Origin: Pararhodobacter sp. SW119
GTDB taxonomy: Bacteria > Pseudomonadota > Alphaproteobacteria > Rhodobacterales > Rhodobacteraceae
Assembly (NCBI RefSeq): GCF_017811755.1
Contig: NZ_JADDJF010000030.1
Coordinates: 1 to 39,292 of the forward strand
Direction: 5' to 3'
DNA length: 39,292 nt
A program made the translations under genes and the position numbers. Positions 5,032-36,862 of the stretch are shown piece after piece. Under the pieces are notes generated by a model. That model had not been told where the DNA came from, did not search any database, and was given only the letters and a program-made list of their open reading frames with translations. Within the stretch, counting starts at the first letter, position 1, and each line of letters opens with the position of its first letter.

Positions 5032-6630
5032 ATGAAAACGAAAGCCTTGCGCTTTGGCGCGGCACTTGCGACCGTGCTTCCTTTGAGCGCGCCCGTACTC
5101 GCGCAGGAACGCGTGCCATCGGTCGAGATAATGACCACGACCGAGGCCTACGATCCGATCCGCTATGAAGGTGCTTTCATTGTCGCCGAAGCCTGGCGTG
5201 AACTTGGGCTCGATGTCACGGTCTCGCCGCTGGAATTCAGGACACTGCTTGACCGGTTCTACTCGGAACAAGATTTTGACGCGGTCATCCTGGGCTGGTC
5301 GGGGCGCGTTGACCGGCTTGATCCTCAGTTCTTCCTTGGCACGCTCGACGGCCGTCAGGCAGGTCTGGGAGCAAACAATCCCGGCGGTTACCAGAACCCG
5401 GAATACGATGAGCTTTATGACGCGCAGTCCCGTGAGTTCGACATAGAGCGCCGGCGCGACATCGTGCACGAGATGCAGGAACTCTATATGCCCGACGTCC
5501 CTGTCGTGATCCTGTTTCACCGGGACGAGGTCGTTGCGTACAACAACACCACCTTCACCAACATGAACGCCATGGCGGGCGAAGGGCTCTATTCCGAATG
5601 GGTGCCGATGGAGGCAGAGCCCGTCGGGGACCGTCGCACCCTGCGGATCGGGGGGCCGCAGGAGCCTGACAACGTGAACCCGCTCGCGTCGACCAGTGTC
5701 TGGGGCTGGAAGTGGATGCGGCTATACTACGATCGTCTGGTCCGCTTGAGCCCGGATGTGGAACCGGTTCCCTGGGCCGCGGAAACGGTCGAAGCGGTGG
5801 ATGAGGTCACAATCGACGTGACACTGCGCGAAGGCATGTTGTGGCACGACGGCGAGCCGATGACGGCTGAAGATGTGGCCTTCACCTTCGACTACTACAT
5901 GGCGAGCGAATACAGTTACTTCAACTCGTATCTCGCCCCTGTCGCCTCGGTTGAGGCGACAGGGGCGCTGTCAGTGCGCTTCAATCTCAGCGAACCATCG
6001 GCTCCCTTCGCCACCATCGCCCTCAGCCAGATCCCGATCCTGCCCAAGCATATCTGGGAAGAAATCGAGAACCCGGGCGACCTGACACCTGACCAGATCC
6101 CGACGGTCGGGTCGGGCCCATTTGTCTTTGACCGCTATGACCGCGGCGAATTCATGTCGCTAACCACCAACCGCGACCATTTCCATGAGGGCGAGATCGC
6201 TGTCGATGGCGTTGAATTTGTCATCTATGCCGATGCCGAAGGGGTGTTTACCGCGCTCCAGACCGGCCAGATCGACATGACCGCGTGGCGGATGGAGCCG
6301 GGGCAGATCCCGCTGGCCGAAGGCAATGACGACCTGACCGTCGTCTCGGTGCCGGACTTCGGCTACTTCCATATGACCTTCAACACTCGGCGCGCGCCCT
6401 TCGACGATGTCGCCGCGCGCCGCGCGCTGACCTACGCGATGGACCGGGGGCGCATGGTGAACGTGCTGCTGGACGGTCGTGGCGAGGTCGGAACCACCGT
6501 GATCGCACCCGTCAATGCTTTCTGGCACAACCCCTTTGTCGAGCGGTTCGACTTCGACATGGACGCGGCGCGGCAGGAACTGGAGAACGCGGGCTATTCC
6601 TGGGATGCGGAAGGCCGTCTGGTCCGCTGA
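5032..6630 (+). CDS. Family 5 (peptide/nickel) ABC substrate-binding protein with a permuted module order
   Basis: Exported solute receptor for the transporter encoded downstream. ATG 5032 follows GGGGGAAAG. Residues 1-24 are a signal peptide (cleavage near APVLAQ-E). Residues 203-532 are the normal N-terminal two thirds of an SBP_bac_5 protein: LRIGGPQEPDNVNPLAST, YYDRLVRLSPD, LREGMLWHDGEPMTAEDVAF, VGSGPFVFDRYDRGEF, DVAARRALTYAMDR. It stops right after DAARQELENAGYSWDAEGRL, where family members normally continue with about 170 more residues. That missing module is instead found at residues 28-195 (VAEAWRELGLDVTVSPLEF, DFDAVILGWSG, GYQNPEYDELYD, HEMQELYMPDVPVVILFHRD). Total length is normal (532). 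This is best read as a circular permutation. Ligand class is likely oligopeptide or a similar solute, unproven. Confidence 0.92.
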   Translation: MKTKALRFGAALATVLPLSAPVLAQERVPSVEIMTTTEAYDPIRYEGAFIVAEAWRELGLDVTVSPLEFRTLLDRFYSEQDFDAVILGWSGRVDRLDPQFFLGTLDGRQAGLGANNPGGYQNPEYDELYDAQSREFDIERRRDIVHEMQELYMPDVPVVILFHRDEVVAYNNTTFTNMNAMAGEGLYSEWVPMEAEPVGDRRTLRIGGPQEPDNVNPLASTSVWGWKWMRLYYDRLVRLSPDVEPVPWAAETVEAVDEVTIDVTLREGMLWHDGEPMTAEDVAFTFDYYMASEYSYFNSYLAPVASVEATGALSVRFNLSEPSAPFATIALSQIPILPKHIWEEIENPGDLTPDQIPTVGSGPFVFDRYDRGEFMSLTTNRDHFHEGEIAVDGVEFVIYADAEGVFTALQTGQIDMTAWRMEPGQIPLAEGNDDLTVVSVPDFGYFHMTFNTRRAPFDDVAARRALTYAMDRGRMVNVLLDGRGEVGTTVIAPVNAFWHNPFVERFDFDMDAARQELENAGYSWDAEGRLVR

Positions 6631-6717: not shown

Positions 6718-7695
6718 ATGTCGCGCCGTACCTATCTGATCAAGCGCGTGTTTCAGGCGATATTGTCGCTCTGGATCATTGCGACGATCCTGTTCTTCCT
6801 TTTCCGAATGGGACTACCCGATCCGACCGCGGCGCTCATCACCGAAGGTCTGAACCCCGAGCAACGCGAAGCCGTGCGCGCCCAGTTCGGGCTCGATCAG
6901 CCAGTCTGGCAGCAGTATTTCCTGTTTCTTTCGAATGCGGTGCAGGGCGAATTCGGCACCTCGTTTTCCTACCGTGCACCGGTGGCCGGGATCGTCTGGG
7001 AGAGGCTGGCCAATACGATGATCCTCATGCTTGCCGCGATCGTCCTCGCCTACGGGATCGGCGTGCCGCTCGGGGCATGGCTGTCCTGGCGCCGGGGGTC
7101 GCGCGTCGACACTGCAGGCATTTTCGTCGGGCTGATGTTCCGTTCTGCGCCGATGTTCTGGACCGGGATGATCGCGATCCTGATTTTCGGTGTGACCCTA
7201 TCGCTCATGCCGACAAGCGGTATGCGGACGCTTCCCTACGACGCCGTGGGTTTCTGGGACAAGGTGCTGACGCTCGATTTCCTGTGGCACGCGGTGCTGC
7301 CTGTGATGATAGTCGCGCTCTACTATCTTGGCTCGCCGCTTCTCATCATGCGCAACACCATGCTCGAGGTCTATGGCGAGGACTTCATCGAGATGGCGCG
7401 TGCGAAGGGCCTGCCGGAGCGCGACATCCTCTACAAGCATGCCGCGCGCAACGCTCTGCTGCCGGTCGTCACGCAACTGGCCGTCACCATCGGGCTGGCC
7501 GCCGGCGGGCAAGTGGTGGTCGAGGTCGTCTTTTCCTGGCCGGGTCTGGGTCGCGAGATCCTCAATGCCGTGCGCACGTCTGATTTCCCGCTCGCGCAGG
7601 CAAGCTTCCTCATCATGGCGGCCTTTGTGATCACGCTGAACCTGTTTGTAGATATCCTCTACACGACGCTCGATCCCAGGGTCAGCTTCCGATGA
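6718..7695 (+). CDS. DppB-type ABC transporter permease
   Basis: First integral membrane subunit of the peptide/nickel-type importer; 325 residues, normal length. N-terminal helix at about 10-30 (IKRVFQAILSLWIIATILFF), the family AQFGLDQPVWQQYFLFLSNA segment, several further helices, and the cytoplasmic coupling (EAA) loop EVYGEDFIEMARAKGLPERD with the following KHAARNALLPVVT. The chosen ATG 6718 has AAGGA upstream; an overlapping ATG at 6711 is in another frame. The stop overlaps the start of the second permease (ATGA at 7692), so the two are translationally coupled. No unusual insertion here, in contrast with its partner. Confidence 0.93.
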   Translation: MSRRTYLIKRVFQAILSLWIIATILFFLFRMGLPDPTAALITEGLNPEQREAVRAQFGLDQPVWQQYFLFLSNAVQGEFGTSFSYRAPVAGIVWERLANTMILMLAAIVLAYGIGVPLGAWLSWRRGSRVDTAGIFVGLMFRSAPMFWTGMIAILIFGVTLSLMPTSGMRTLPYDAVGFWDKVLTLDFLWHAVLPVMIVALYYLGSPLLIMRNTMLEVYGEDFIEMARAKGLPERDILYKHAARNALLPVVTQLAVTIGLAAGGQVVVEVVFSWPGLGREILNAVRTSDFPLAQASFLIMAAFVITLNLFVDILYTTLDPRVSFR

Positions 7696-9410
7696 CCATG
7701 CCGCCGTTCCTTCGCGCGGCGGCCGGCCCGCTCAAGTTGATGTTGCAAGACCGTCTTGCCGTCATCGGGCTTTGCGTGCTGGGCGTCATCATCGCGATGG
7801 CGCTCTTGGCGCCGATGATCGCAACGCACGATCCGCGCCAGATCAACGAGATCGAGGATGGATCGGTTCTCGTGCGGGGCACCGATACATGGGAACTTTC
7901 TGAAAGCCTTGGGCCGCTCGCGCTCAACGATGCGGATCATCGCGGCAACGAGGCGCTGATCGTCGGGCGCGAGGGTACGGTCTGGGAACGTGACGGTGAC
8001 GACTGGAGGCGCGTTCAGGTTCCCGTTGCCGCGGATCTGCACGCGGTCGCTTTCGGGCCGCAGGCGGGGGCGCTGATCGTGGGCGATTCCAGCACGGTAT
8101 TGGCGCAGGTCGGGGAAGGGTGGCGCGTGATCGACCCCCCCCGGCCCGCCGATTTGCGCGGCGTCGCGTGGATCGATCCCGACTCAGCCCTGATCGTAGG
8201 CGCCGGCGAAGAGATCTGGCGCCTTGACGTTGCTTCAGGCGACATCACGGAAATCGACAGTCCGGTCGGTCGTGGTTTTGCGCTTGCATCGGTCGCAAGG
8301 GATACCGACGGCACGCTGCTGGCTGTCGGTGCGCGCGGCCTCGCGGTCCGCTACGACCCCGCGACCGGTGCGGCAACGCTCGACCGGCTCGGCTCCAGCC
8401 GCGATTTGAACCATATCCACATCGCACCCGGCGGCGCGGCGCTGGTGGTCGGCGAAAGGGGCACGCTGCTGCGCCGCGACGGACCCGAGGCGCGCTGGCA
8501 GACCGACACCGCACCGGACACTCGGGCCCTGCGGGCCGGTTGGATCGACGATGGCGGGCGTGCCGTCGCGGTCGGTCGAAACGGGATCGCCATGGAGTGG
8601 GATGGTGACGCCTGGCAACTGGCCACAACCGAATCCGAGCGGCACCTCCGTGCACTTCTGATCGAGGGCGACAGATGGCTTGCCCTTGGTTCGGACCGCT
8701 TTGTCACCCGCTTGGCGCCGCCGTCGGCCGAGCACTGGTTCGGCACCGACCACCTCGGTCGCGACCTCTACAGCCAGAACGTTCACGGTAGTCGCATCGC
8801 CCTTCTGGTGGGGTTTCTTGGCGCGACGCTTGTCGTTTTGATCGGCACCAATGTCGGCCTGATCGCGGGCTACTATCGCGGCCGGACGGAAGCTGTGCTC
8901 ATGCGCACGGTCGATGTGATGTACGGCATTCCGTTCGAGCCTTTCGCGCTGATCCTAGTGCTGCTGTTCCAGCCCAGCCTCCTGATCGTCATCCTTGCCG
9001 TGTCGCTTCTGACGTGGCGAACTGTGGCGCGCCTGATCCGTAGCCAGGTCCTGAGCCTGCGCGAACGTCCCTTCGTGAAGGCCGCGCGCGTGGCGGGGGC
9101 GTCGGACCTGCGCATCATGTATCTGCACATCTTTCCCAACGTGATGCCGCTCGTGTTTCTGGAGTTGGCGATCATCGTGGGCGTCAGCATCATCGCCGAG
9201 GCAACGCTTTCCTTCCTCGGCCTCGGTCCGCCGCATTCGATCAGCTGGGGGGGCATCCTGCATGATGCACGCCTTTCGGGGGCCTGGCGCACGGCCTGGT
9301 GGTGGAACCTGCCGCCCGGGATATTCATCATGGTGACGGTGTTGTCGGTTTTCTTCGTCTCGCGCTCGCTCGAAGTGGTTGCCAATCCCCGGTTGAGGGC
9401 ACGCCAATGA
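7692..9410 (+). CDS. DppC-type ABC permease with an inserted periplasmic beta-propeller-like domain
   Basis: Second permease subunit, but 572 residues against about 280-300 for the family. Residues 22-42 are the usual first helix and PMIATHDP the usual exit; residues 345-572 are a complete DppC core (HWFGTDHLGRDLYSQ, IAGYYRGRTEAVLMRTVD, coupling loop RERPFVKAARVAGASDLRI, ATLSFLGLG, SWGGIL). Between them, about 52-343, is an extra domain of seven repeats marked by a hydrophobic-VG/LG strand at about 90, 129, 168, 211, 252, 293 and 331 (spacings 38-43), each followed by a Trp/Arg/Asp-rich strand such as GREGTVWERDGDDWRRV. The pattern resembles YCF48/BNR or WD40-like propellers. By topology it lies in the periplasm, where the binding protein docks. 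Frame is continuous and overlaps both neighbours by 4 bases, so it is not an assembly artefact of two genes. Confidence 0.93.
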   Translation: MTMPPFLRAAAGPLKLMLQDRLAVIGLCVLGVIIAMALLAPMIATHDPRQINEIEDGSVLVRGTDTWELSESLGPLALNDADHRGNEALIVGREGTVWERDGDDWRRVQVPVAADLHAVAFGPQAGALIVGDSSTVLAQVGEGWRVIDPPRPADLRGVAWIDPDSALIVGAGEEIWRLDVASGDITEIDSPVGRGFALASVARDTDGTLLAVGARGLAVRYDPATGAATLDRLGSSRDLNHIHIAPGGAALVVGERGTLLRRDGPEARWQTDTAPDTRALRAGWIDDGGRAVAVGRNGIAMEWDGDAWQLATTESERHLRALLIEGDRWLALGSDRFVTRLAPPSAEHWFGTDHLGRDLYSQNVHGSRIALLVGFLGATLVVLIGTNVGLIAGYYRGRTEAVLMRTVDVMYGIPFEPFALILVLLFQPSLLIVILAVSLLTWRTVARLIRSQVLSLRERPFVKAARVAGASDLRIMYLHIFPNVMPLVFLELAIIVGVSIIAEATLSFLGLGPPHSISWGGILHDARLSGAWRTAWWWNLPPGIFIMVTVLSVFFVSRSLEVVANPRLRARQ

Positions 9411-11692
9411 AGGACAGTGCGACGCGAAACCTGCTCGATGTCCGCGACCTGGCGATCCACTACCGGACCGGGGCGGGTCCGGTGAAGGCCGTCGACGGGA
9501 TCGACTTCACCATTGCCCCGGGCGAGGCGCTGGGGCTGGTGGGCGAGTCCGGTTGCGGAAAGACCACCGCCGCCAAGGCGATGCTGAAACTGCTGCCCCC
9601 CAACGGCGAGATTCCGCGCGGCCGGATCGACTTTGCCGGCCGCGACCTGGTGCCGCTGACAGGCGAGGACATGCGCTGCGTCCGCTGGAAGGAAATCGCC
9701 TGGATCAGCCAGGCCGCGATGAACGCGCTCGACCCGGTCTATCGCGTCGGCGACCAGATCCTTGAGGCGATGCAGGCGCATATCAGGATCGATCGGGCCG
9801 AAGGCATGGCGCGGGCCCAGGATCTGTTCCGCGCCGTCGGGATCGACCCGTCGCGGCTGCGCGCTTACCCGCACGAGATGTCGGGCGGCATGAAGCAGCG
9901 CGCGGTGATCGCCATGGCCATGGCGCTGGAGCCGCAACTTCTGATCGCGGACGAGCCGACGACGGCGCTCGATGTGGTCACGCAGGCGCAGATCCTCTCG
10001 CGGCTGGCGAAGCTGCGGCGCGAGCGGGGCATGGCGCTCCTCTTCATTACTCATGACATTTCGGTCGTCGTGCAGACCTGCGACAGGGTCGCGGTCATGT
10101 ACGGCGGCAAGATCATGGAAACCGGCCCAGTGCGCCAGGTTTTCGCCCAGCCGTTCCATCCCTACACGATGGGCCTCACCAACGCCTTCCCCACGCTGGA
10201 AGGGGCGCAGCGCGAACTGATCTCGATCCCCGGCACGCCGCCCGATCTGCTGGATCCGCCCGTGGGCTGCCGCTTTGCCGAACGCTGTCCCTTCGCCACC
10301 GATCGTTGCCGGGCCGAGGACCCGGCGCATCACCAGGTGGGGGCGGGGCGTTACTCGGCCTGTCACTATCCCGACCGGGTCGAGGAATTTCGCCGCACCG
10401 CTGCGACCAATGAAGCCTGGGCCGAGGTTGGCCGGCGCCTTGACGAGGAGGTGACGCTGGCGACACGGCGCATCCGGACCTCGAGCGCCGAGGTGCTGCG
10501 AGTCGAAGGTCTGGTGAAGCATTTTCCGATTCCGGCAGGGTTTTTTGGCAGATCCGAGACCAGCGTTCATGCGGTCGATGGGATCGACCTGACCCTGGAG
10601 GCGGGCGAGATCCTGGGATTGGCGGGCGAATCCGGGTCGGGAAAGACCACGACCGGCGAGATGCTCGTCCGTTTGCAAGAGCCGACGGAGGGACGCATCC
10701 TGTCAGAGGGCGACGATATCGCGCATCTGAAGGGTGCCGAGTTGAAGGCGTTTCGCCGGCGCGCGCAGATGGTCTTCCAGGATCCCTACCAGACGCTCAA
10801 TCCGCGTTTCACGATCCAGGACATCGTCGGCGAACCGCTGACGATTCATGGTCTGGCCAGGGGTTCCGACCGGCGCGCCAAGGTCGTTCAGGCGCTGGAG
10901 CGCGCCGGGTTGAAGCCCGCCGAAACATACATGGAGCGCTTCCCGCATGAATTGTCCGGCGGCCAGCGCCAGCGCGTCGCCATCGCGCGCGCCATCGTGC
11001 TCGAGCCGCGCTTCATCGTGGCCGACGAGCCGGTGTCGATGCTGGACGTGTCGATCCGGGCGGGCGTGCTGAACCTGATGCGGCATTTCCGCGACGAGAT
11101 GGGGATTTCCTTCGTCTATGTCAGCCACGACCTGCCGACGATCCGCTATGTCGCCGACCGGACCGCGATCATGTATCTGGGCGAGATCGTCGAGGTCGGA
11201 CCGACCGAAAAGGTCATCGCCGAACGCAAGCATCCCTATACGCAGCTTCTGCTCGACGCCTCGCCCGAACCCGACCCGTCGGTCGAGAAGCCGCCGTTGG
11301 AGTCGGCGGGCGAGATCCCCTCGGCGATCGACGTTCCGAATGGCTGCCGGTTTCACAATCGCTGCCCCCTTGCGACCCCGGTCTGTGGCTGGGAGGGGCG
11401 CGACGTGGTGGCTGCGCTGGCCGAATGGGACATGGCCAACCGGGCGCGCCCGGCATTGGGAACGCCGGTAACCAGCGGCCTGTCGGTCCGCATCCCCGCG
11501 CCGCAGGGGCCCGCCGCCGCCCGGGCGCAACTGGCTGACGTCCTGTCGGAGCGTCCCCCGTCGCTGGCCGAGGCGGCGAGGATCGAAGAACACGCAGATG
11601 GCTTGGTGGTGCACTTCGAAAGCTATCCGTCGCCGCGGCGGCGGGGGGTTGGGGAGGGGCATGAGGTGGCTTGTGTGCTTTATCCTGAGTGA
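9407..11692 (+). CDS. Fused dipeptide-type ABC ATPase (DppD-DppF), 761 aa
   Basis: Both nucleotide-binding domains of the importer in one chain. NBD1: Walker [10 protein letters not shown] at about 46-54, signature MSGGMKQR at about 158-165, Walker B LLIADEPT, then the oligopeptide-transporter C-terminal cysteine region [15 protein letters not shown] at about 288-301. NBD2 begins near 365: Walker [11 protein letters not shown], signature LSGGQRQR, Walker [10 protein letters not shown], and a second cysteine region [15 protein letters not shown]. Start ATG 9407 overlaps the previous stop (ATGA), although the frame is open further upstream. The last 20 residues ([14 protein letters not shown] and on) look like translated low-complexity flank. 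Fusion of D and F subunits is known in other alphaproteobacterial peptide importers. It completes a self-contained SBP-B-C-DF operon. Confidence 0.94.
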
Positions 11693-14041: not shown

Positions 14042-15331
14042 ATGTTCGACTCGACCCTGTTCTTTCGCCTGCGGCAAATCTTCTCGCAGATCTGGGTGAA
14101 GCTGACGGTGTTTGCGCTGCTGTCCGTCGGCACCGCCTTTGTCGCGATGGCGCTGCGCCCGGTCGTGCCGACGGAATGGGAGGCGCATCTGGGCGTGGAC
14201 GCGGTCGAGACGGTGCTCACCATCGTCGCGAGCTCGATGCTGGCGGTCTCGACCTTCTCGCTGGGGATCATGGCCGACGCGATCCGGGGGGCGGCGGATG
14301 GCGCCACGCCGCGCGCCAGTGCGTTGCTGCTGGAAGACGGCACTTCGCAGAACGTGCTGGCCACCTTCCTGGGGGCGTTCATCTTCTCGCTTGTCGGGAT
14401 CATCCTGCTGCAGATCGACTTTTACCAGGATGGCGGTCGCGTCGTCCTGCTGGCGGTCTCGGTCGTCGTGATCTTCCTGATCTTCGTTGCGTTCATCCGG
14501 TGGATCAACCTGCTGCGGACCTTTGGCCGGCTTCCCGACACGCTCGCGCGCATGGAACAGACGGTGGGCGATTCCTTGCAGCGGCGTCTCGCGAACCCGT
14601 ATCTGGGATGCCGGCGGCTGGAGATCCCGGCGCGGGAGTTCCAGACCATGCAGGCGGTCGAAAGCGCGCGGATCGGACATGTCCAGCATGTCGATGTCGA
14701 GGAACTGCAGGAACTGGCCGAGAAGCACGGCATCGAGATCGTCATCAACCGGATGCCGGGGCGTTTTGTCTGCGCCGGCCGGCCGATGGCCTATCTGAAG
14801 GGCACGGACGCGAAGATGGACGAGGAGTTCACCGACAAGGTGCTGGATTGCTTCACCATCGGGTCCACGCGCACCTTTTCGCAGGATCCGCAGTTCGGCA
14901 TGATCGTGATGGCCGAGACCGCCTCGCGCGCGCTGTCGCCGGCGGTCAACGATCCCGGCACGGCGATCGACGTGCTGCGGCGGGCGCAGCGCGTGCTGAG
15001 CAAGTGGGAAACGCGCGCCAACCCCGAGACCGTGCACGACCGGGTGTGGATGGCAGGCCTCGATGCGAACGATTTCCTGCGCGACCTGCTGCGCCCGATT
15101 GCGCGCGACGGCGCCGGCTTCGTCGAGGTGCAGCACATCCTGCAATCGGTGCTGCGCGACCTTGCCCGCAAGGCGCCCGACATCTTCGGGCAGGCCGCGA
15201 GGCTGGCGTCGACCGAGGCGCTGGCGCGCGCCGAGAAGGCCCTGACGCTGGAGGCGGAGCGCGAGGAGATCCGCGAGATCGCGGCCGAGGTCGCGCGCCT
15301 GTCCGAGGACCGAGCCCGGAAGGCGATCTGA
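14042..15331 (+). CDS. DUF2254 family membrane protein (429 aa)
   Basis: Inner-membrane protein with helices at about 20-40, 58-80 (VLTIVASSMLAVSTFSLGIM), 108-125 and 134-156, followed by a cytoplasmic region of 270 residues. The motifs SSMLAVSTFSLGIM, ASALLLEDGTSQNVLATFLG, and later SRALSPAVNDPGTAIDVL are characteristic of DUF2254, a widespread family without an established function. Length matches the family. The ATG at 14042 has GGAGG seven bases upstream. It could be cotranscribed with the stress genes upstream across the hairpin. The gene at 15342 converges on it, stops 10 bases apart, with no terminator visible between. Confidence 0.88.
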   Translation: MFDSTLFFRLRQIFSQIWVKLTVFALLSVGTAFVAMALRPVVPTEWEAHLGVDAVETVLTIVASSMLAVSTFSLGIMADAIRGAADGATPRASALLLEDGTSQNVLATFLGAFIFSLVGIILLQIDFYQDGGRVVLLAVSVVVIFLIFVAFIRWINLLRTFGRLPDTLARMEQTVGDSLQRRLANPYLGCRRLEIPAREFQTMQAVESARIGHVQHVDVEELQELAEKHGIEIVINRMPGRFVCAGRPMAYLKGTDAKMDEEFTDKVLDCFTIGSTRTFSQDPQFGMIVMAETASRALSPAVNDPGTAIDVLRRAQRVLSKWETRANPETVHDRVWMAGLDANDFLRDLLRPIARDGAGFVEVQHILQSVLRDLARKAPDIFGQAARLASTEALARAEKALTLEAEREEIREIAAEVARLSEDRARKAI

Positions 15332-15341
15332 GCGGGCCGCG

Positions 15342-16565
15342 TCAGGGCGGCTCGCCGGTCAACTCCTTCGGCGTGGGGGTCTGGGCCGGGTCGCCCGACA
15401 GCAGGTTCGACAGCTTGCCCATCCCGGGGACCTGCTCGGCGATGACCCGGAAGGCCACCAGCAGCGGCACGGCGATCAGCATGCCCAGGAAGGACCACAT
15501 CCAGGCCCAGAACGCGACCGAGAGGAAGACGAGCACGATGTTCATCCGCAGCCGGCGGGCGAGCATGAGGGGGGTGATCAGCTGCCCCTCGATCGTGGTC
15601 AGCGCGAGGTAGGCGCCGGTCACCATGAGCATGCTGGCAAGATCGTCGAACCACAGGAGCGACACCACTGCCGAAATCAGGACCCCTGTCACCGCGCCCA
15701 CATAGGGGATGTAGTTGAGCGCGAATCCGAGGACCCCGAAGAGCACAGGCACCGGCATGTCGAGGGCCCACATCGCCGCGGTGATCGACGCGCCCAGCCC
15801 GGCGTTGATCAGGGTGATGGTGCCCAGATACCCGCCGAGGTTCAGTTCGATCTCGCGCAGCGCCCGGAAGGCCGCGCGCTTGTCGGCGAAACCATCGAAG
15901 CTTTGCACGATCTTCAGGTAGATCAGGTCGGCCGACGACAGCAGGAAGTAGAGGAGCACGAGCATGAAGACCACCTGCGCGACGGCCGCGGGCGCGTTGG
16001 CGAGGTAGCTCATCGCGCCGGTCGCGGTCGACACCAGGAATTCGTCGTCGGTCTGTTCCTCGCCATCGCCATTCTCGCCGCCTTCGCCCTCCGCGACGGG
16101 CTCGGCGATGATCGCGACGGATCGCAGGTCGGGCAGAGCCTCGTTGCCGTCTTCGCGCAATTCGGACACGACTGACAAGAGCGCCCCGCGTAGCGCATTG
16201 AACCTTTCCATGACGTCGCGCGTGATGTCGGGAAAGTTGTTGACGACCTGCATGATCGGCCCGCTGACCAGAAAGAAGATCGCGGCGATGCCCAGCAGAA
16301 GGCTGAGGACCAGGACCGCGGCGACCGGTGCCTTGGGCAGGCCATAGCGATGAAAGCGCCGCTGGACCGGCGCGAAGACGAAGAAGAGAAGCAGCGAGGT
16401 GACGACAGGCAGCAGGAAATCGCGCGCGTAATGCACGGCACCCAGAAGCAGAAGCACGAAGATCCCGATGACGGAAACCGCCGCGGCCCCGTGCAGGGTG
16501 ACGCGGGCGGAATTGTCGTGTGGGGGCGATATCTGCGGACTGGTCGGCGAGGATGGGAGTGTCAT
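15342..16565 (-). CDS. AI-2E family transporter (PerM/TqsA type), 407 aa
   Basis: Polytopic membrane protein of the AI-2E exporter superfamily, whose members include autoinducer-2 exporters and Na+/H+ antiporters; the substrate here is unknown. Helices at about 25-45 and 47-70 (HYARDFLLPVVTSLLLFFVF), then a long non-membrane stretch with an acidic insert (about 150-180, EGEGGENGDGEEQTDDE), and the conserved C-terminal block GYLGTITLINAGLGASITAA, FALNYIPYVGAVTG, FWAWMWSFLGMLIAVPLLVA. ATG 16565 gives a family-like start; the frame is open 56 codons upstream but those would overlap the divergent EcfG promoter. Divergent from the phospholipase D gene. The acidic insert in the soluble loop is unusual but not unique as far as I know. 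Confidence 0.9.
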   Translation of the reverse strand: MTLPSSPTSPQISPPHDNSARVTLHGAAAVSVIGIFVLLLLGAVHYARDFLLPVVTSLLLFFVFAPVQRRFHRYGLPKAPVAAVLVLSLLLGIAAIFFLVSGPIMQVVNNFPDITRDVMERFNALRGALLSVVSELREDGNEALPDLRSVAIIAEPVAEGEGGENGDGEEQTDDEFLVSTATGAMSYLANAPAAVAQVVFMLVLLYFLLSSADLIYLKIVQSFDGFADKRAAFRALREIELNLGGYLGTITLINAGLGASITAAMWALDMPVPVLFGVLGFALNYIPYVGAVTGVLISAVVSLLWFDDLASMLMVTGAYLALTTIEGQLITPLMLARRLRMNIVLVFLSVAFWAWMWSFLGMLIAVPLLVAFRVIAEQVPGMGKLSNLLSGDPAQTPTPKELTGEPP

Positions 16566-16674
16566 GCGAAACGGGCCCTGCAACCTCTGTTGGAATGCCG
16601 AAACGGAAGGGCACCAGCTACACAACGCCGCCGCCCGCCTGCGGTTTCCTGTCGCATGCCGAAATGTGTTGCAG

Positions 16675-16699
16675 GGAACCGGTTGGCGGATGCGGCGTT
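16675..16699 (+). promoter_or_regulatory. Exact EcfG promoter for the phospholipase D gene
   Basis: GGAAC (16675-16679), 16 bases, CGTT (16696-16699). The predicted start near 16706 leaves a 26-base leader with CAGGGG before ATG 16732. Confidence 0.7.
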
Positions 16700-16731
16700 G
16701 CCCCATCGTCGCACACCGTACAGGGGTTGTC

Positions 16732-18024
16732 ATGTCGCCTTCGCCGCGCCGCTATCGGCGGAAGCTTCGCATCGCCGTGGCAGCGGTCGTGGCGGTGGTG
16801 CTGTTCTGGTTCTTCGTGGTCGCCCTGATGCCCTACCGGCACGAGTTGCGGCGCGCGGTCCCGCCGGGCACGCCCGCCTGCGATCCGCAGTTCGCGCGCG
16901 ACATGGCCGGGCTTTACGGCAGCGCCATCATCAGCGGCAACCGGATCACCACGCTGGTCAACGGCGATGCGATCTTCGCGGCGATGCTGGAAGCGATCGG
17001 TGAGGCCGAAAGATCCATCACCTTCGAGACCTACATCTACTGGACCGGCGCGATCGCCGAGCGTTTCTGTGACGCCCTGATCGACCGCGTGAAGGCCGGT
17101 GTCCGCGTGAAGGTGCTGATCGACTGGGCCGGCAGCCTGCCGATGTCGGACGACCTTATCGACCGGATGCACGAGAATGGCGTGGAACTGCGGATGTTCC
17201 GGCCGATGCGGCTGCGCACGCTGACGCGGCTCAATAACCGCACGCATCGCAAGATCCTGGTCGTCGATGGCAAGCTGGGATTCATCGGCGGCGTCGGGAT
17301 TGCCGACGAATGGTGCGGTGACGCGCGCAATCCCGGCGAATGGCGCGACACGCATTATCGCGTCGCCGGTCCCATCGTGGCGATGCTTCAGAACGCCTTC
17401 GCGCACAACTGGGTCGAGGCGCACGGCGAGGTCCTTCGCGGTGACGCTTTCTATCCCGAACTCGCGCCGCAGGGCGACACCGCGCTTCAGCTGGTCAAGA
17501 GCAATACCGGCAGCCGCAACGAGATCCACCTGATGATGATGACCGCCCTGGCCGGGGCGGAACGGCACATTCGCATCTCGACGCCCTACTTCGTGCCCGA
17601 CAATGTCGTCATGGATCAGCTGCTTCAGGCCCGCAAGCGCGGCATCCGGGTCGATCTGATGCTGGCCGCGCGGCAAAACGATTCGGTTCTAGTCCGGCGC
17701 GTTTCACGGCGGTCCTGGCGCAAGCTGCTGGAGGCCGGGGTCCATATCCATGAATTCACCCCGACATTCCTGCACGCGAAGCTTCTGATCGTCGATGAGT
17801 GCTGGGCGTCTTTCGGATCGGCGAATTTCGACGAAAGGTCGTTTCGCCTGAACGACGAAGCCAACCTCAACGTCTATGACGAGGCGGTCGTGGCCGAGCA
17901 GATCGGCCTGTTCAACGCCGATCTTGCGCGCTCGCGCCCCGTGACGATTGCGGATCTGGACCGGATCGGATGGCTGACGCACGCGCAGGACATCGTGCTG
18001 TCGATCCTCAAGCCGCATCTGTGA
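16732..18024 (+). CDS. Phospholipase D-like cardiolipin synthase (430 aa)
   Basis: Two-HKD enzyme of the cardiolipin synthase type, making cardiolipin by phosphatidyl transfer at the inner membrane. A single N-terminal helix (about 12-32, LRIAVAAVVAVVLFWFFVV) anchors it. First HKD motif HRKILVVDG (His172, Lys174, Asp179) followed by GFIGGVGI; second HAKLLIVD (His348, Lys350, Asp355) followed by FGSANFDERSF, the usual pair spacing. Length is slightly shorter than E. coli ClsA, and only one helix is present, closer to ClsB/C-like or short alphaproteobacterial forms. I chose ATG 16732 because the EcfG promoter at 16675 would remove the 88 upstream codons. Stress-induced membrane remodelling is the inferred role. 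Confidence 0.9.
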   Translation: MSPSPRRYRRKLRIAVAAVVAVVLFWFFVVALMPYRHELRRAVPPGTPACDPQFARDMAGLYGSAIISGNRITTLVNGDAIFAAMLEAIGEAERSITFETYIYWTGAIAERFCDALIDRVKAGVRVKVLIDWAGSLPMSDDLIDRMHENGVELRMFRPMRLRTLTRLNNRTHRKILVVDGKLGFIGGVGIADEWCGDARNPGEWRDTHYRVAGPIVAMLQNAFAHNWVEAHGEVLRGDAFYPELAPQGDTALQLVKSNTGSRNEIHLMMMTALAGAERHIRISTPYFVPDNVVMDQLLQARKRGIRVDLMLAARQNDSVLVRRVSRRSWRKLLEAGVHIHEFTPTFLHAKLLIVDECWASFGSANFDERSFRLNDEANLNVYDEAVVAEQIGLFNADLARSRPVTIADLDRIGWLTHAQDIVLSILKPHL

Positions 18025-23602: not shown

Positions 23603-23788
23603 ATGGACCTGGTCTGGCTCTTGCCGCTGCTTGCGATGTTCACGCTGCTGAGCGTGGTGGTCTTTGCATTGCTCAGCAAGAAACGCGTCGAGGAAAGACG
23701 ACACGATCCGAACAGTCCCAAGTCGTCCCTGGCGCCGGACAGCGCCGGCGCCGGCGCGGTCGAAAAGCTGCAGCGCAAGCCGCGGTAA
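23603..23788 (+). CDS. Small single-helix membrane protein (61 aa)
   Basis: Good Shine-Dalgarno (GGAGG, six bases before ATG). Residues 2-24 form a hydrophobic helix (DLVWLLPLLAMFTLLSVVVF), followed by a basic then mixed tail (SKKRVEERRHDPNSPKSS and on). The layout suggests the N-terminus out and the tail in the cytoplasm. I see no known family; the helix resembles small oxidase-associated or phage-shock type anchors only in a general way. It is divergent from the oxidase operon and 58 bases ahead of the OmpA-family gene, so cotranscription with the latter is likely. Confidence 0.65.
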   Translation: MDLVWLLPLLAMFTLLSVVVFALLSKKRVEERRHDPNSPKSSLAPDSAGAGAVEKLQRKPR

Positions 23789-23846
23789 GCAAGGAACCCG
23801 CCTTCCGGTCGCAATCGACGGGCGCGGGTCGAAATCTGGAGGTACG

Positions 23847-25937
23847 ATGATGCGCAGTTCGAAGTTCCACGCAACCACCGCCCTTGGCTTGTGCCTGATG
23901 ATGGCGCCCGTCGCGGTCAGTGCGCAAGAAGATGCCGCGGCCGAGCAGCCGGACGGCCTTTACGCGCCGCTGGTCGAAGCCTGCCGCGACAATCCGGAGA
24001 CGGACGGCTGCGATGCCGTGCGCGCCCGGGTCGGCGAATGCGTCGAGAGCTACGACGCCAGGCTCTGCGAGGTGTTGCTGGCCGATCCCACGATGGACGG
24101 CGCCGAAGACCCCGAGGCGCGCGCCGTGGAGGCGATCGAAGCCCTGCAGGTCGAATTCGCGGATCTCGCCGAACCCGCCCCGGATGCGCCCGCGCCCGAA
24201 GAGATGGCCCAGGTCGAAGCCCCCGAGCCGGTGGTCGAAGCGGCCGAAGCGCCCGCGGAAAGCGAAGCCGTGACCGAGGACGCCGAGCCTGCGGAAATGG
24301 CCGAGGCCGAGGCCGCGCCCGAACTCGAAGCGGTGGAGGAAGAGGCGCGCATCGAGGAGACGGAGTCCGAAGAAACCCAAGTCGACGAAGCCGAAGCTGA
24401 CGCGGCGCAAGCCGCCGACGAGATGGTCGATGACACGCCGGCCGCAGCCGACGCCGCCGCCGCGGAAGAAGCGGCGCCGGAAGACGACGCGGTCGCCGAT
24501 CAGGATGCCGCCGCCGAAGAGGTCGCCGAGACCGCCGAGGAGCCGCAGCCGGACGCGGCAATGCCGGATGCCGAAAGCATCGCCGCCGCCGAGGAGGAAG
24601 AGCGCGCGCTCGAGGAAGAACGCGCCCGCCTGCGCGCCGAGGCCGAGGCGATGGCCGATGAAGCCCCGGAACTGGTGGTCGAGGACGCCCCGGAAGAGGA
24701 GTTCGTTGCCCCCGTAGAACAGGCCCGCGAACTGGACGCCGCCGAACAGGCCACCGTCGACCGCTTGCTGGAGGACCCCGAGGTCGCCACTGCCGTCGGC
24801 CTTCTGGGCTCGGTCCTGGCCTCGCGCTTGGCACCTGCGGGCGACGATGCGCCCGATGACCAGCCCCCCGCCGCCGCCCTCGCCGCGCGCGAGGCCGAGG
24901 AGGGTGAAGCCGAAGCCGAGCTCGAGGAAGAGCCCGAAGTGATCGAGGAGTCGATCACCGCCGCGCAGCTGCGTAGCAGCCAGGAGGACTTTGCCTCGCG
25001 CCTGTCGCTGGATGTCGACGCCAGTGCCGGCGCCGATCGCGCCCGCCGCGACCGCCGCGATCTGGAGCGCGCGGGCCTCGCAGCCCTTGGGGCGCTGGCG
25101 GTCGGCATGATCGTCAACCGCAACCGCGTCGTCGCGCGCTCGGACGAACGCGTGGTCGTCGACACCGGCGAGGGCGATCTGGAACTATGGCGCGACGATG
25201 ACGCGATCCTGCTTCAGGACGGCTCGACCCGCCGGATCGAACGGTTCAGCGACGGGTCCACGCGCACCCGTTGGATCCGCCCGGATGGCACCCATGTCGT
25301 CACCGTGCGGGACGCGACCGGCCGCGTGCTGCGCCGCGAGCGGATCGCGCCCGACGGCAGCATGGTCGAGTTGCTGGACGACACCCGGCAGTATGCTCCG
25401 ATCGACGTATCGGTCCTGCCGCCCCCGCGCACCAGGGAGCTTCGTATCTCGCAGCGCACCGATCCCGAACTCGCGCTTGCGATGCTCCGCGAAGCCGAGG
25501 CCGAGGCACGGGCCATCGACCGGTCCTTCTCTCTGCGCCAGGTCCGTGAGACCCGCGAGCTTCGCGATCTGCTGCCGCTTCTGAGCCCCGAACCCATCAC
25601 GTTCGAGACCAACCGCGCGAATGTCCGCGCCGACGAAGCCCCCAAGCTGCTGCAGGTGGGCCGCCTGATGGAGCGTCTGATTGCCGACAACCCGCGCGAG
25701 ATGTTCCTGATCGAGGGCCACACCGATGCGACGGGTCCCGCAGCCTACAACCTCGCGCTGTCGGATCGCCGGGCTGAATCGGTGGCGCTGGCCCTGACCG
25801 AGTTCTTCGAGATCCCGCCGGAAAACCTGGTGGTGCAGGGCTACGGCGAGCGTCACCTGCGTATCCCGACGCTCGACTCGGAGGTCCGCAATCGCCGCGT
25901 GGCGATCCGGCGGATCACCCCCCTGATCGATTCCTGA
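23847..25937 (+). CDS. OmpA-family protein with a long acidic Ala/Glu-rich region (696 aa)
   Basis: Exported protein: signal peptide about 1-25 (ATTALGLCLMMAPVAVSAQE), a short Cys-containing segment (CRDNPETDGCDAV, VGECVESYDARLCEV; four Cys likely in two disulfides), then about 90-390 extremely rich in Ala, Glu, Asp and Pro and probably extended. A short helix (GLAALGALAVGMIVNRNRV) follows, then beta-rich repeats (STRRIERFSDGSTRTRWIRP, TVRDATGRVLRRERIAPDGS), and a C-terminal OmpA peptidoglycan-binding domain at about 580-690 (ITFETNRANVRADEAP, LIEGHTDATGPAAYN, LSDRRAESVA, VQGYGERHLRIP). ATG 23847 has GGAGG upstream. It may bridge cell wall and membrane. The beta repeats resemble those of other alphaproteobacterial OmpA-like proteins. 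Confidence 0.88.
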   Translation: MMRSSKFHATTALGLCLMMAPVAVSAQEDAAAEQPDGLYAPLVEACRDNPETDGCDAVRARVGECVESYDARLCEVLLADPTMDGAEDPEARAVEAIEALQVEFADLAEPAPDAPAPEEMAQVEAPEPVVEAAEAPAESEAVTEDAEPAEMAEAEAAPELEAVEEEARIEETESEETQVDEAEADAAQAADEMVDDTPAAADAAAAEEAAPEDDAVADQDAAAEEVAETAEEPQPDAAMPDAESIAAAEEEERALEEERARLRAEAEAMADEAPELVVEDAPEEEFVAPVEQARELDAAEQATVDRLLEDPEVATAVGLLGSVLASRLAPAGDDAPDDQPPAAALAAREAEEGEAEAELEEEPEVIEESITAAQLRSSQEDFASRLSLDVDASAGADRARRDRRDLERAGLAALGALAVGMIVNRNRVVARSDERVVVDTGEGDLELWRDDDAILLQDGSTRRIERFSDGSTRTRWIRPDGTHVVTVRDATGRVLRRERIAPDGSMVELLDDTRQYAPIDVSVLPPPRTRELRISQRTDPELALAMLREAEAEARAIDRSFSLRQVRETRELRDLLPLLSPEPITFETNRANVRADEAPKLLQVGRLMERLIADNPREMFLIEGHTDATGPAAYNLALSDRRAESVALALTEFFEIPPENLVVQGYGERHLRIPTLDSEVRNRRVAIRRITPLIDS

Positions 25938-35673: not shown

Positions 35674-35858
35674 TCGTCACCTGATTTGCTCTGAGTGTCC
35701 TGCTGTCTCAGCGCATCAAGGAGTTCGGTCAGGTTACTGGGCAAGTCCTCGGCGGCGGCTTCGCTGTAAAGCCGCTTGAGATTCTCGTCGATCTGCTGGG
35801 AAACCGAAGGTGGTATGGACCCCGACTTTCCATTTTGATTACTGCTCATCATCGCCAT
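35670..35858 (-). CDS. nepR: NepR anti-sigma factor (62 aa)
   Basis: Small cytoplasmic protein that sequesters EcfG and is itself titrated by phosphorylated PhyR. Core pattern VSQQIDENLKRLYSEAAAED followed by LPSNLTELLDALRQQ matches the NepR helix-loop-helix (IGxxLRxxYxxxxxEPxPxxxxxLLxxL). The start is uncertain: ATG 35858, 35852 and 35849 are all in frame and none has a strong Shine-Dalgarno. The predicted EcfG transcript start near 35950 gives a leader of about 92 bases. Overlaps ecfG by four bases. Confidence 0.9.
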   Translation of the reverse strand: MAMMSSNQNGKSGSIPPSVSQQIDENLKRLYSEAAAEDLPSNLTELLDALRQQDTQSKSGDE

Positions 35859-35949
35859 TCAGCTGCGCGCCCCACCATTATCAACAACCTGTCATCTTCC
35901 TTGACGTCGCGCAAGCACTGCGCGAGCAGAAGAAACTCTGGATATTCGT

Positions 35950-35974
35950 GGAACCGAACGCCGCTATTCGCGTT
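35950..35974 (+). promoter_or_regulatory. Exact EcfG promoter for phyR (overlaps the divergent one)
   Basis: GGAAC (35950-35954), 16 bases, CGTT (35971-35974). The predicted start near 35981 gives a leader of about 87 bases before ATG 36068. Confidence 0.8.
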
Positions 35975-35981
35975 TGGTTCC
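35957..35981 (-). promoter_or_regulatory. Exact EcfG promoter for nepR-ecfG (overlaps the divergent one)
   Basis: Minus-strand GGAAC (35981-35977), 16 bases, CGTT (35960-35957). It shares 18 bases with the phyR promoter; the arms GGAACCGAACG and CGTTTGGTTCC form a near-palindrome, so each strand reads as GGAAC-16-CGTT. Confidence 0.8.
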
Positions 35982-36067
35982 CCGGCCGAGAACTTTTTTT
36001 CAGTACTCGGACTGAAACACATATATACGGGATGAAGGCTGAAATGCGCGAGATCGAAGGAGTACAT

Positions 36068-36862
36068 ATGTCGAGGTCGATGCAGATAGCGAAAGAGCTG
36101 CCTTTTCTACGCAGGTATGCGCGGGCGCTCACCGGAAGTCAGTCGACTGGCGACAAGTACGCGGCGGCCACGCTTGAAGCGATTCTGGCGGACCGCTCGC
36201 TGCTGGCTGATGGGATTTCGCCGAAAATCGCCTTGTTCAAGGCATTTCATTCCGTCTGGCAGACGACCGGGGCACCCATCGGTGACGGGGCAATCGACGG
36301 GATCGAGGCACGCGCACAGTCGTTGCTCGCGGCCCTGACCGCCAACACGCGTGAGGCGCTTCTCCTGCGCTCGCTCGAAGAGTTCTCCTACGCCGAGATC
36401 GGTCAGATCATTCAGGTCGCCGAAAACGAGGCGCAAGATCTGGTGGCCATCGCCTACAGGGAGATGTCACGTTCGGTTCGTGGACGGGTGCAGATCATCG
36501 AGGACGAGCCGCTGATCGCGCTCGATATCCGCAACATCGTGACCGACATGGGCCACGAAGTGACCGGGATCGCGCGCACACACGCGGAGGCCGTCGCCTT
36601 GGGCAAGCGGGAGCGCCCAGACCTCATTCTGGCGGACATACACCTTGCCGATGATTCATCGGGCGTGGAGGCGGTAGGCGAGTTGCTGGAGCAATACGAG
36701 TGTGTCCCTGTGATCTTCATCACGGCCTATCCCGAACGTCTGCTGACGGGGGAGAAGCCCGAACCGGCTTTCCTGATAACCAAGCCGTTCGAGCAGGAGC
36801 AGGTCCGCTCTGCAGTGTCGCAGGCGATGTTCTTCGCGTCTACCCAAACCCTGAACGTCTGA
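36068..36862 (+). CDS. phyR: PhyR anti-anti-sigma response regulator (264 aa)
   Basis: Sigma-factor mimic that binds NepR when phosphorylated and so frees EcfG. Residues about 1-135 are the sigma-like domain (LPFLRRYARALTGSQSTGDK, REALLLRSLEEFSYAEIGQI), and 140-255 the receiver: acidic pair Glu145-Asp146 (IIEDEPLIALD), phospho-acceptor Asp190 (LILADIHLADDSSGVEA), Thr219 and Lys239 in the FITAYPERLLTGEKPEPAFL / ITKPF stretch, which is the atypical FAT-GUY motif (PFxFATG[G/Y]) of this family. ATG 36068 has AAGGAG in front; the frame is open for 86 more codons but those cover the promoter. Divergent from nepR-ecfG, a layout typical of the group. Confidence 0.96.
   Translation: MSRSMQIAKELPFLRRYARALTGSQSTGDKYAAATLEAILADRSLLADGISPKIALFKAFHSVWQTTGAPIGDGAIDGIEARAQSLLAALTANTREALLLRSLEEFSYAEIGQIIQVAENEAQDLVAIAYREMSRSVRGRVQIIEDEPLIALDIRNIVTDMGHEVTGIARTHAEAVALGKRERPDLILADIHLADDSSGVEAVGELLEQYECVPVIFITAYPERLLTGEKPEPAFLITKPFEQEQVRSAVSQAMFFASTQTLNV

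Follow-up and report, generated by a model that had tools for sequence, protein, structure and literature searches.

A predicted seven-blade propeller inserted in a DppC-type ABC importer permease, encoded beside a putatively circularly permuted binding protein

The window, by which we mean the whole stretch of 39,292 nucleotides analysed from Pararhodobacter sp. SW119 (contig NZ_JADDJF010000030.1), encodes an ABC importer in which the DppC-type permease subunit almost certainly carries an inserted seven-blade propeller. The operon also encodes a binding protein that is, as judged from segment matches, circularly permuted, the segment of its C-terminal lobe preceding the N-terminal segment. 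An earlier note on this DNA had recognized the anomaly of the permease, which stands, and had missed the permutation of the binding protein. The best explanation that we can give as a whole joins this anatomy to a docking mechanism, in which the propeller would receive the binding protein in the periplasm; taken together, it is offered as tentative and at somewhat less than an even chance. The operon is composed of the following features:

5032-6630, plus strand: substrate-binding protein P0002, 532 aa, signal-peptide-like start, SBP_bac_5 family, putatively permuted (Pfam, PDB comparison)
5161-5547, plus strand: first segment of P0002, matching part of the C-terminal lobe of ordinary family-5 proteins (profile match)
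5665-6615, plus strand: second segment of P0002, matching the N-terminal part of ordinary family-5 proteins (profile match)
6718-7695, plus strand: DppB/OppB-type permease of ordinary length, 325 aa (Pfam BPD_transp_1, BPD_transp_1_N)
7692-9410, plus strand: DppC/OppC-type permease with inserted propeller, 572 aa (frame check, Pfam, AlphaFold2)
9407-11692, plus strand: fused DppD-DppF type ATPase with two ABC domains (Pfam ABC_tran and oligo_HPY, two stretches each)

The last 4 bases of the DppB/OppB-type gene overlap the start of the propeller permease, and the fused ATPase likely starts, to go by the sequence, at the ATG at 9407 inside a longer frame, 9299-11692. Upstream of the operon lie an isocitrate/isopropylmalate dehydrogenase-family gene and an IMP dehydrogenase gene. 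Downstream are genes for a DUF2254 membrane protein (14042-15331), a protein with two PLD-like stretches (16468-18024) and a 757-aa frame that carries an OmpA domain at its C-terminal end (23664-25937), all three ordinary as far as looked at. A PhyR-type response regulator with a sigma-like domain, presumably the general stress response regulator of Alphaproteobacteria, is encoded at 35810-36862.

The permease frame at 7692-9410 covers 572 residues with no inner stop, and Pfam recognizes its two ends: OppC_N at residues 18-52 (39.5 bits against a cut-off of 23.9) and BPD_transp_1 at 388-569 (78.8 bits against 26.4). At E <=0.01, OppC_N matches all 19 rows of the propeller alignment and BPD_transp_1 matches 18, the miss being expected in the remaining row (L045), which was supplied only to the insert end. 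None of the 22 listed NCBIfam permease equivalogs (Opp4C, Opp1C, NikC, DppC and others) reaches its curated cut-off, the best being Opp4C with 245.3 against 350 bits. When the permease is aligned with five relatives that lack a propeller, including one from the genome of the window, the segment stands out as a clean insertion that separates TM1 from the HWFGT motif. The suggestion that residues 52-343 are alien to the permease family is thus borne out by alignment and Pfam, with boundaries nearer to 51-338, and the core with its HWFGT motif follows the insert as claimed, which both the BPD_transp_1 match and the relatives' alignment bear out. The transmembrane core (337-565) has pLDDT below 50 in the AlphaFold2 model and is unreliable there, a low value being expected from a shallow alignment; its identity is therefore taken from Pfam and from homology to solved DppC/OppC chains. 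The permease is divided as follows:

7752-7820, plus strand: TM1, residues 21-43 (predicted helix, AlphaFold2 at low confidence; OppC_N 18-52)
7842-8705, plus strand: inserted seven-blade propeller, residues 51-338 (alignment, AlphaFold2, Foldseek)
8724-9407, plus strand: permease core with the HWFGTDHLGRD motif and the remaining TM helices, residues 345-572 (Pfam, solved DppC/OppC chains)

The TM1-TM2 region is periplasmic in both DppB and DppC of E. coli, according to the available part of the structural study (PMC12136057), and the established DppC topology supports by analogy the periplasmic placement that had been proposed for the propeller.

The insert has a regular internal rhythm. Motifs of two hydrophobic residues and a Gly start exactly at residues 90, 129, 168, 211, 252, 293 and 331, as had been noted, and a chain of seven such motifs with a spacing of 38-43 was not produced by any of 20,000 shuffles of residues 52-343, the longest chance chain being five, in 4 shuffles. 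In the AlphaFold2 model, which was built from 19 aligned sequences (that of the window and those of all 18 genome loci, L045 to the insert end only, with the Nitratireductor protein left out), 28 strands lie between residues 54 and 337 and are arranged as six four-strand blades plus a seventh made of two strands from each end:

7851-7898, plus strand: N-terminal half of blade 7, ring-closing strands 54-62 and 66-69 (AlphaFold2)
7923-8015, plus strand: blade 1, residues 78-108 (AlphaFold2)
8037-8129, plus strand: blade 2, residues 116-146 (AlphaFold2)
8154-8252, plus strand: blade 3, residues 155-187 (AlphaFold2)
8283-8387, plus strand: blade 4, residues 198-232 (AlphaFold2)
8406-8507, plus strand: blade 5, residues 239-272 (AlphaFold2)
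8529-8621, plus strand: blade 6, residues 280-310 (AlphaFold2)
8643-8702, plus strand: C-terminal half of blade 7, residues 318-337 (AlphaFold2)

The ten-residue mean pLDDT is 84-96 over residues 61-330, 66 at 51-60 and 60 at 331-340, so the closing strands at both edges of the insert are the least sure part of the predicted ring. Foldseek agrees with the model: designed seven-blade propellers take ranks 1, 2 and 4 against the PDB, and the best hit has a TM-score of 0.79 on target length. The seven-blade propeller inferred in the earlier note is accordingly predicted as a closed ring, and its guess that the segment before the first repeat closes the last blade finds its counterpart in the two-plus-two closure of the model.

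By sequence, the insert is less easily placed. All Pfam models score below their cut-offs on the window insert, in line with the claim that it is no standard named domain; below threshold, Beta-prop_HVO_0234 scores 16.2 bits and PSII_BNR 14 bits, each against 27, and the best propeller-model match in the other alignment rows has E 0.006. At E <=0.01, NCBIfam matches only the permease part and no propeller model, the best stretches starting at residue 337 or later. Membership of the insert in the YCF48 family (PSII_BNR, PF14870) was rejected, the 14 bits against 27 being joined by a match at E <=0.01 in only one of 19 rows. The closest standalone relatives of the insert are nevertheless YCF48/BNR-type propellers. 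Five of the six tested pass the PSII_BNR cut-off (the sixth, of 717 aa, scores 25.1 against 27 bits), and descent of the insert from a propeller of the YCF48 kind is therefore likely. Like the YCF48/BNR-type propellers (PSII_BNR; PDB 2xbg, 5ojr, 5oj3), the insert has a predicted seven-blade fold, and the named YCF48 entries found by Foldseek are 16-19% identical to it; unlike the insert, those propellers are standalone proteins, and it falls short of the cut-off of their model. A profile of the insert gives weak hits to PDB sequences, the best being a RACK1 entry at E 0.0057, so that the claim is limited to fold and extends to no sequence homology with a solved propeller.

The binding protein P0002 belongs to family 5, with an SBP_bac_5 match of 245.9 bits against 32.4 whose best stretch, residues 244-528, covers profile positions 1-284. 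Comparison with PDB sequences gives two pieces in reversed order: residues 204-523 align with AppA 24-345 and residues 39-164 with AppA 368-489, and likewise residues 202-529 with 8efz 12-329 and 32-150 with 8efz 338-449. The smaller pieces are weak alone (E 0.0087 and 0.0017), and segment profiles are the stronger evidence for the inferred permutation. In the loci that were fetched, the N-terminal profile matches 59 frames of 350 aa or more, and the C-lobe profile matches every one of them; the order is reversed in 37, which include three second copies of loci already counted, and canonical in 22, of which five belong to the window's own genome. The motif R-x-[DE]-P marks all 36 reversed frames that hold the region but 1 of the 21 canonical ones, one frame of each order being without the region. 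An AlphaFold2 model of the binding protein, made from 16 close sequences, has a mean pLDDT of 38.6. In the further propeller loci, a homologue of the permuted protein lies upstream in 16 of 19, cut by the contig end in L038, and the remaining three (L029, L040 and L045) begin too near the permease to show a binding protein. The permuted binding protein thus accompanies the propeller in every operon where it is visible.

When genome contigs were scanned with the profile of the insert, 65 pattern matches emerged, and 18 of these encode relatives at 59-83% identity. They come from Rhodobacteraceae, including Pararhodobacter, Rhodobaculum claviforme, Rhabdonatronobacter and Roseinatronobacter, and from one contig labelled Geminicoccaceae. 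Soda lakes are the habitat of several of the genera that bear the propeller. Three loci are from named strains, Rhodobaculum claviforme LMG 28126, Rhabdonatronobacter sediminivivens IM2376 and Pararhodobacter oceanensis AM505, the other genome loci with a complete frame being from MAGs. The insert also occurs on one of 72,556 plasmid records, that of Nitratireductor sp. OM-1, at 52.9% identity. There are therefore 19 further propeller loci, mostly from Rhodobacteraceae, or 20 with the window, and 19 of these hold a complete permease. On the contig labelled Geminicoccaceae (L045, 2300-4229), the permease stops after the insert, where unrelated sequence begins, and the core is absent from the remainder of the contig, which may reflect either a chimera of the assembly or a genuine break. 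Within the window's genus, 5 of 18 genomes have the full permease, incomplete assemblies being among the remaining 13; it is absent from the other 42 of the 60 genomes examined, which lie outside that genus set. When 385 genomes of the class were searched, a strong match to the insert came from that of the window alone; 28 further genomes gave weaker matches (best E 1.7e-12 to 6.6e-4), with at most six candidates scored per genome, so that weak relatives may be missed. At the weaker-match propeller loci (L048-L076), no frame of at least 100 aa matched the DppC core profile.

Permuted binding proteins are found more widely than the propeller. In 14 sister systems, one of them (C116) in the window's own genome, a permuted binding protein is paired with a propeller-less C permease whose open frame has 288-355 codons. 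Full-length matches to the permuted protein occur in 12 of the 385 class genomes besides the window's own (other Alphaproteobacteria), at most three candidates having been scored per genome, so that weak relatives may be missed. The type is also present on plasmids of the haloarchaea Halalkalicoccus jeotgali, Natrononativus amylolyticus and Halorussus salilacus, and all six plasmid loci examined, of 62 matched records, have the permuted order together with a propeller-less C permease. A restriction of permuted binding proteins to Alphaproteobacteria had seemed to follow from a search of 398 genomes of the phylum at E 1e-40, again with at most three candidates scored per genome, in which the window's genome alone matched; it was overturned by the haloarchaeal plasmids, which match nearly the whole query and in three of whose systems the reversed segment order was found. 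Two propeller-less sister operons, L118 and L120, have an extra gene between the B and C permease genes (L118 9787-10953, L120 6153-7298). It is not a propeller gene but belongs to the enolase superfamily, with MR_MLE domains above cut-off, and is a possible substrate clue. In L154-L156 and L159 (haloarchaeal plasmids, Ketogulonicigenium), creatininase-family, M20 peptidase, amidohydrolase or hydantoinase/oxoprolinase genes adjoin operons with a permuted binding protein; these neighbours hint at amide-type substrates, and no such gene lies within the window operon.

The order of events was read from two trees. The first, of permease cores, has 51 rows (19 with propeller, 14 permuted without propeller and 18 ordinary) and requires one change each for permutation and propeller, with support of 100/99 for the permuted group and 100/99 for the propeller clade. 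The second adds the six plasmid loci and thins the propeller clade to seven, giving 45 rows, and supports the permuted group at 100/100 and the propeller clade at 100/99. The ordinary rows were chosen among the top-scoring DppC hits, and each took its label from the binding-protein gene on the stretch that was fetched; in L114, L115, L121, L124 and L128 that gene is on the opposite strand, at a distance of 1.6-5.6 kb from the C gene. Two propeller rows of the first tree, L029 and L040, were labelled permuted with no binding protein in view. Both trees carry a long-branch warning, the join named in the first being that of the whole permuted group with five ordinary rows. The simplest reading of these sequences is that one permutation came first and that the propeller was probably gained once within the permuted group. 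Since in the second tree the propeller clade is sister to all other permuted systems (support 88/82, not starred), loss of the propeller elsewhere is formally possible.

Within the propeller, conservation is uneven. The insert is 60-83% identical to that of the window, against 92-97% for the core. The majority residue has a mean frequency of 0.98 in the permease core; within the insert this value falls to 0.87 for the N-terminal closing strands, to 0.84-0.89 for blades 4-6 and the C-terminal part of blade 7, and to 0.65-0.73 for blades 1-3. Altogether, 101 of the 288 insert positions are invariant in the 19 rows, including Arg at 14 of 28, Gly at 19 of 36 and Leu at 16 of 29. Eight of the 14 invariant Arg, chosen by their position relative to the AlphaFold2 strand limits, fall in two kinds of loop: R194, R237, R278 and R317 immediately precede the opening strand of blades 4-7, and R93, R215, R256 and R296 lie between the second and third strands of blades 1, 4, 5 and 6. 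By general propeller geometry, both kinds would lie on one face of the propeller. Among the standalone relatives, of which up to 58 domains align (from 3 to 29 at each of the eight positions), Arg is the most frequent residue, alone or tied, at four positions; it is in the majority only at R317, where three domains align, and in the minority elsewhere.

Large folded domains are rare in importer permeases, the P2 loop of MalF being the textbook case. In the importer described here, the DppC subunit of a peptide/nickel-type system bears the predicted propeller in its periplasmic TM1-TM2 loop, the pseudo-symmetric counterpart of the site of the scoop motif in DppB, and the propeller would be a docking platform, fixed to the translocator, for a strongly acidic binding protein. 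Its better conserved half, blades 4-7, with invariant Arg on one face, may hold or orient the binding protein near the pathway, and blades 1-3 would point to the solvent and drift; docking might perhaps be an adaptation to salty, alkaline surroundings. We infer this periplasmic docking role with reserve, giving it rather less than half a chance. According to the available part of the E. coli study (PMC12136057), the TM1-TM2 region of DppB forms a scoop motif, which reaches into the binding protein's cleft and contacts it. The propeller is like it in being a periplasmic element in the TM1-TM2 region of a permease; unlike the propeller, the scoop consists of two short helices and a loop and, in the same available text, is on DppB, not DppC (PMC12136057). 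Since the propeller occupies the TM1-TM2 region of the partner subunit, it should stand periplasmically near the docked binding protein, and its location at the docking site is plausible by this analogy. A docking platform is further favoured by charge, the binding protein having a net charge of -49 without its presumed signal peptide, as against -1 for the near-neutral blades 4-7 with their invariant Arg.

Several points weigh against docking. First, the invariant Arg might instead act on a ligand or a different partner, or be needed for the fold; they are not singled out, Gly and Leu being kept equally often, and the pattern may partly be family background, since Arg is commonest at four of the eight positions in standalone relatives. 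Second, many systems combine a permuted binding protein with a permease that lacks the propeller, so that the propeller is not required for receiving one. Third, the insert as a whole is acidic (-18, of which -13 in blades 1-3), and its faster divergence than the core is, on the sequences compared, weak evidence for a tight obligate interface. In the open-access literature, no description of docking by such a receiver domain was found among type I importers. The fuller history, in which the lineage rebuilt its periplasmic side twice, permuting the binding protein and then adding to the C permease a propeller that would receive it on the Arg face and so share in recognition, appears to us doubtful, with perhaps one chance in three of being right.

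An alternative use of the Arg face is ligand capture, the propeller being a second capture domain fixed to the translocator that would bind an anionic substrate or peptide tail and feed or gate the pathway. The 14 Arg invariant in all 19 rows would fit it, the fold hits include a solved entry named 'YCF48 bound to D1 peptide', and the R-x-[DE]-P motif common to the permuted binding proteins is compatible with an unusual anionic ligand. Nevertheless, the named YCF48 entries are the distant ones noted above, at 16-19% identity, and the Pfam YCF48 model, below cut-off for the window protein, matches a single row. We regard this function as unlikely, though a serious rival, and judge it equally improbable that the propeller ties the importer to some other periplasmic or envelope protein, for example a peptidase making substrate at the import site. 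Propellers are common interaction scaffolds, and peptidase, amidohydrolase, creatininase-family or hydantoinase genes adjoin related loci with a permuted binding protein; the window operon, however, is without such a gene and has the two dehydrogenase genes upstream.

That the insert is a folded passenger of little function, harmless and hence kept, would accord with the strong variation of blades 1-3 and with the faster change of the insert than of the core, but is very improbable in view of its selection. By NG86, between the window and 6 of the 18 genome relatives, dN is 0.12-0.30 and dS 0.92-1.38 over the insert, 0.19-0.43 and 0.86-1.29 over blades 1-3 alone, and 0.03-0.07 and 0.72-1.04 over the permease core, dS values near or above 1 being close to saturation; three closer pairs give the same order. 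The insert is under purifying selection that is looser than in the core, dN lying well below dS over both the insert and blades 1-3 in all six comparisons. It is moreover kept from Rhodobacteraceae to Nitratireductor at 53% identity, and more than a hundred of its positions (101) are invariant. Finally, the fusion of a propeller gene and a permease gene by an assembly or frame error, for which L045 might speak in losing the core where its contig becomes unrelated sequence, can safely be set aside, the complete frame being found in 18 other relatives (17 genome loci, three of them in named strains, and one complete plasmid record) and the predicted ring being closed by strands from both insert ends.

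Compared with known systems, the operon resembles E. coli DppABCDF, as far as the available part of its description goes (PMC12136057; PDB 8z1v and others), in its subunit types, in the order binding protein, B, C and ATPases, and in the similarity of the core to DppC/OppC; it differs in the propeller of about 290 residues in the TM1-TM2 region of its C subunit, the fused ATPases and the putatively permuted binding protein. The claim that no importer permease with a propeller has been described agrees with searches of the open-access literature, which listed none. Natural permutation of a binding protein is already known from a cluster B sugar binder: Tp0684 (MglB-2) of Treponema pallidum is, in the part of the report available, a natural circularly permuted sugar-binding protein assigned to a 'cluster Bc' (PMC4990184). 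P0002 shares with it the natural permutation of an ABC importer binding protein; Tp0684, in the same available text, is a cluster B glucose binder (PMC4990184), whereas P0002 is of family 5 (peptide/nickel, cluster C) and goes with permeases of the Dpp/Opp kind. Membership of P0002 in cluster Bc was rejected, its sole Pfam match at E <=1 being SBP_bac_5, and no paper on permuted family-5 binding proteins was found in the open-access literature. In the plasmid records examined, this subfamily is annotated plainly as 'ABC transporter substrate-binding protein', so that the permuted topology appears to have been overlooked in annotation, in a subfamily that spans Alphaproteobacteria to haloarchaea. 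Ordinary binding proteins, permuted ones without a propeller and permuted ones with a propeller form a natural before-and-after series, which makes testable both the recognition between binding protein and translocator and the cost or gain of permutation.
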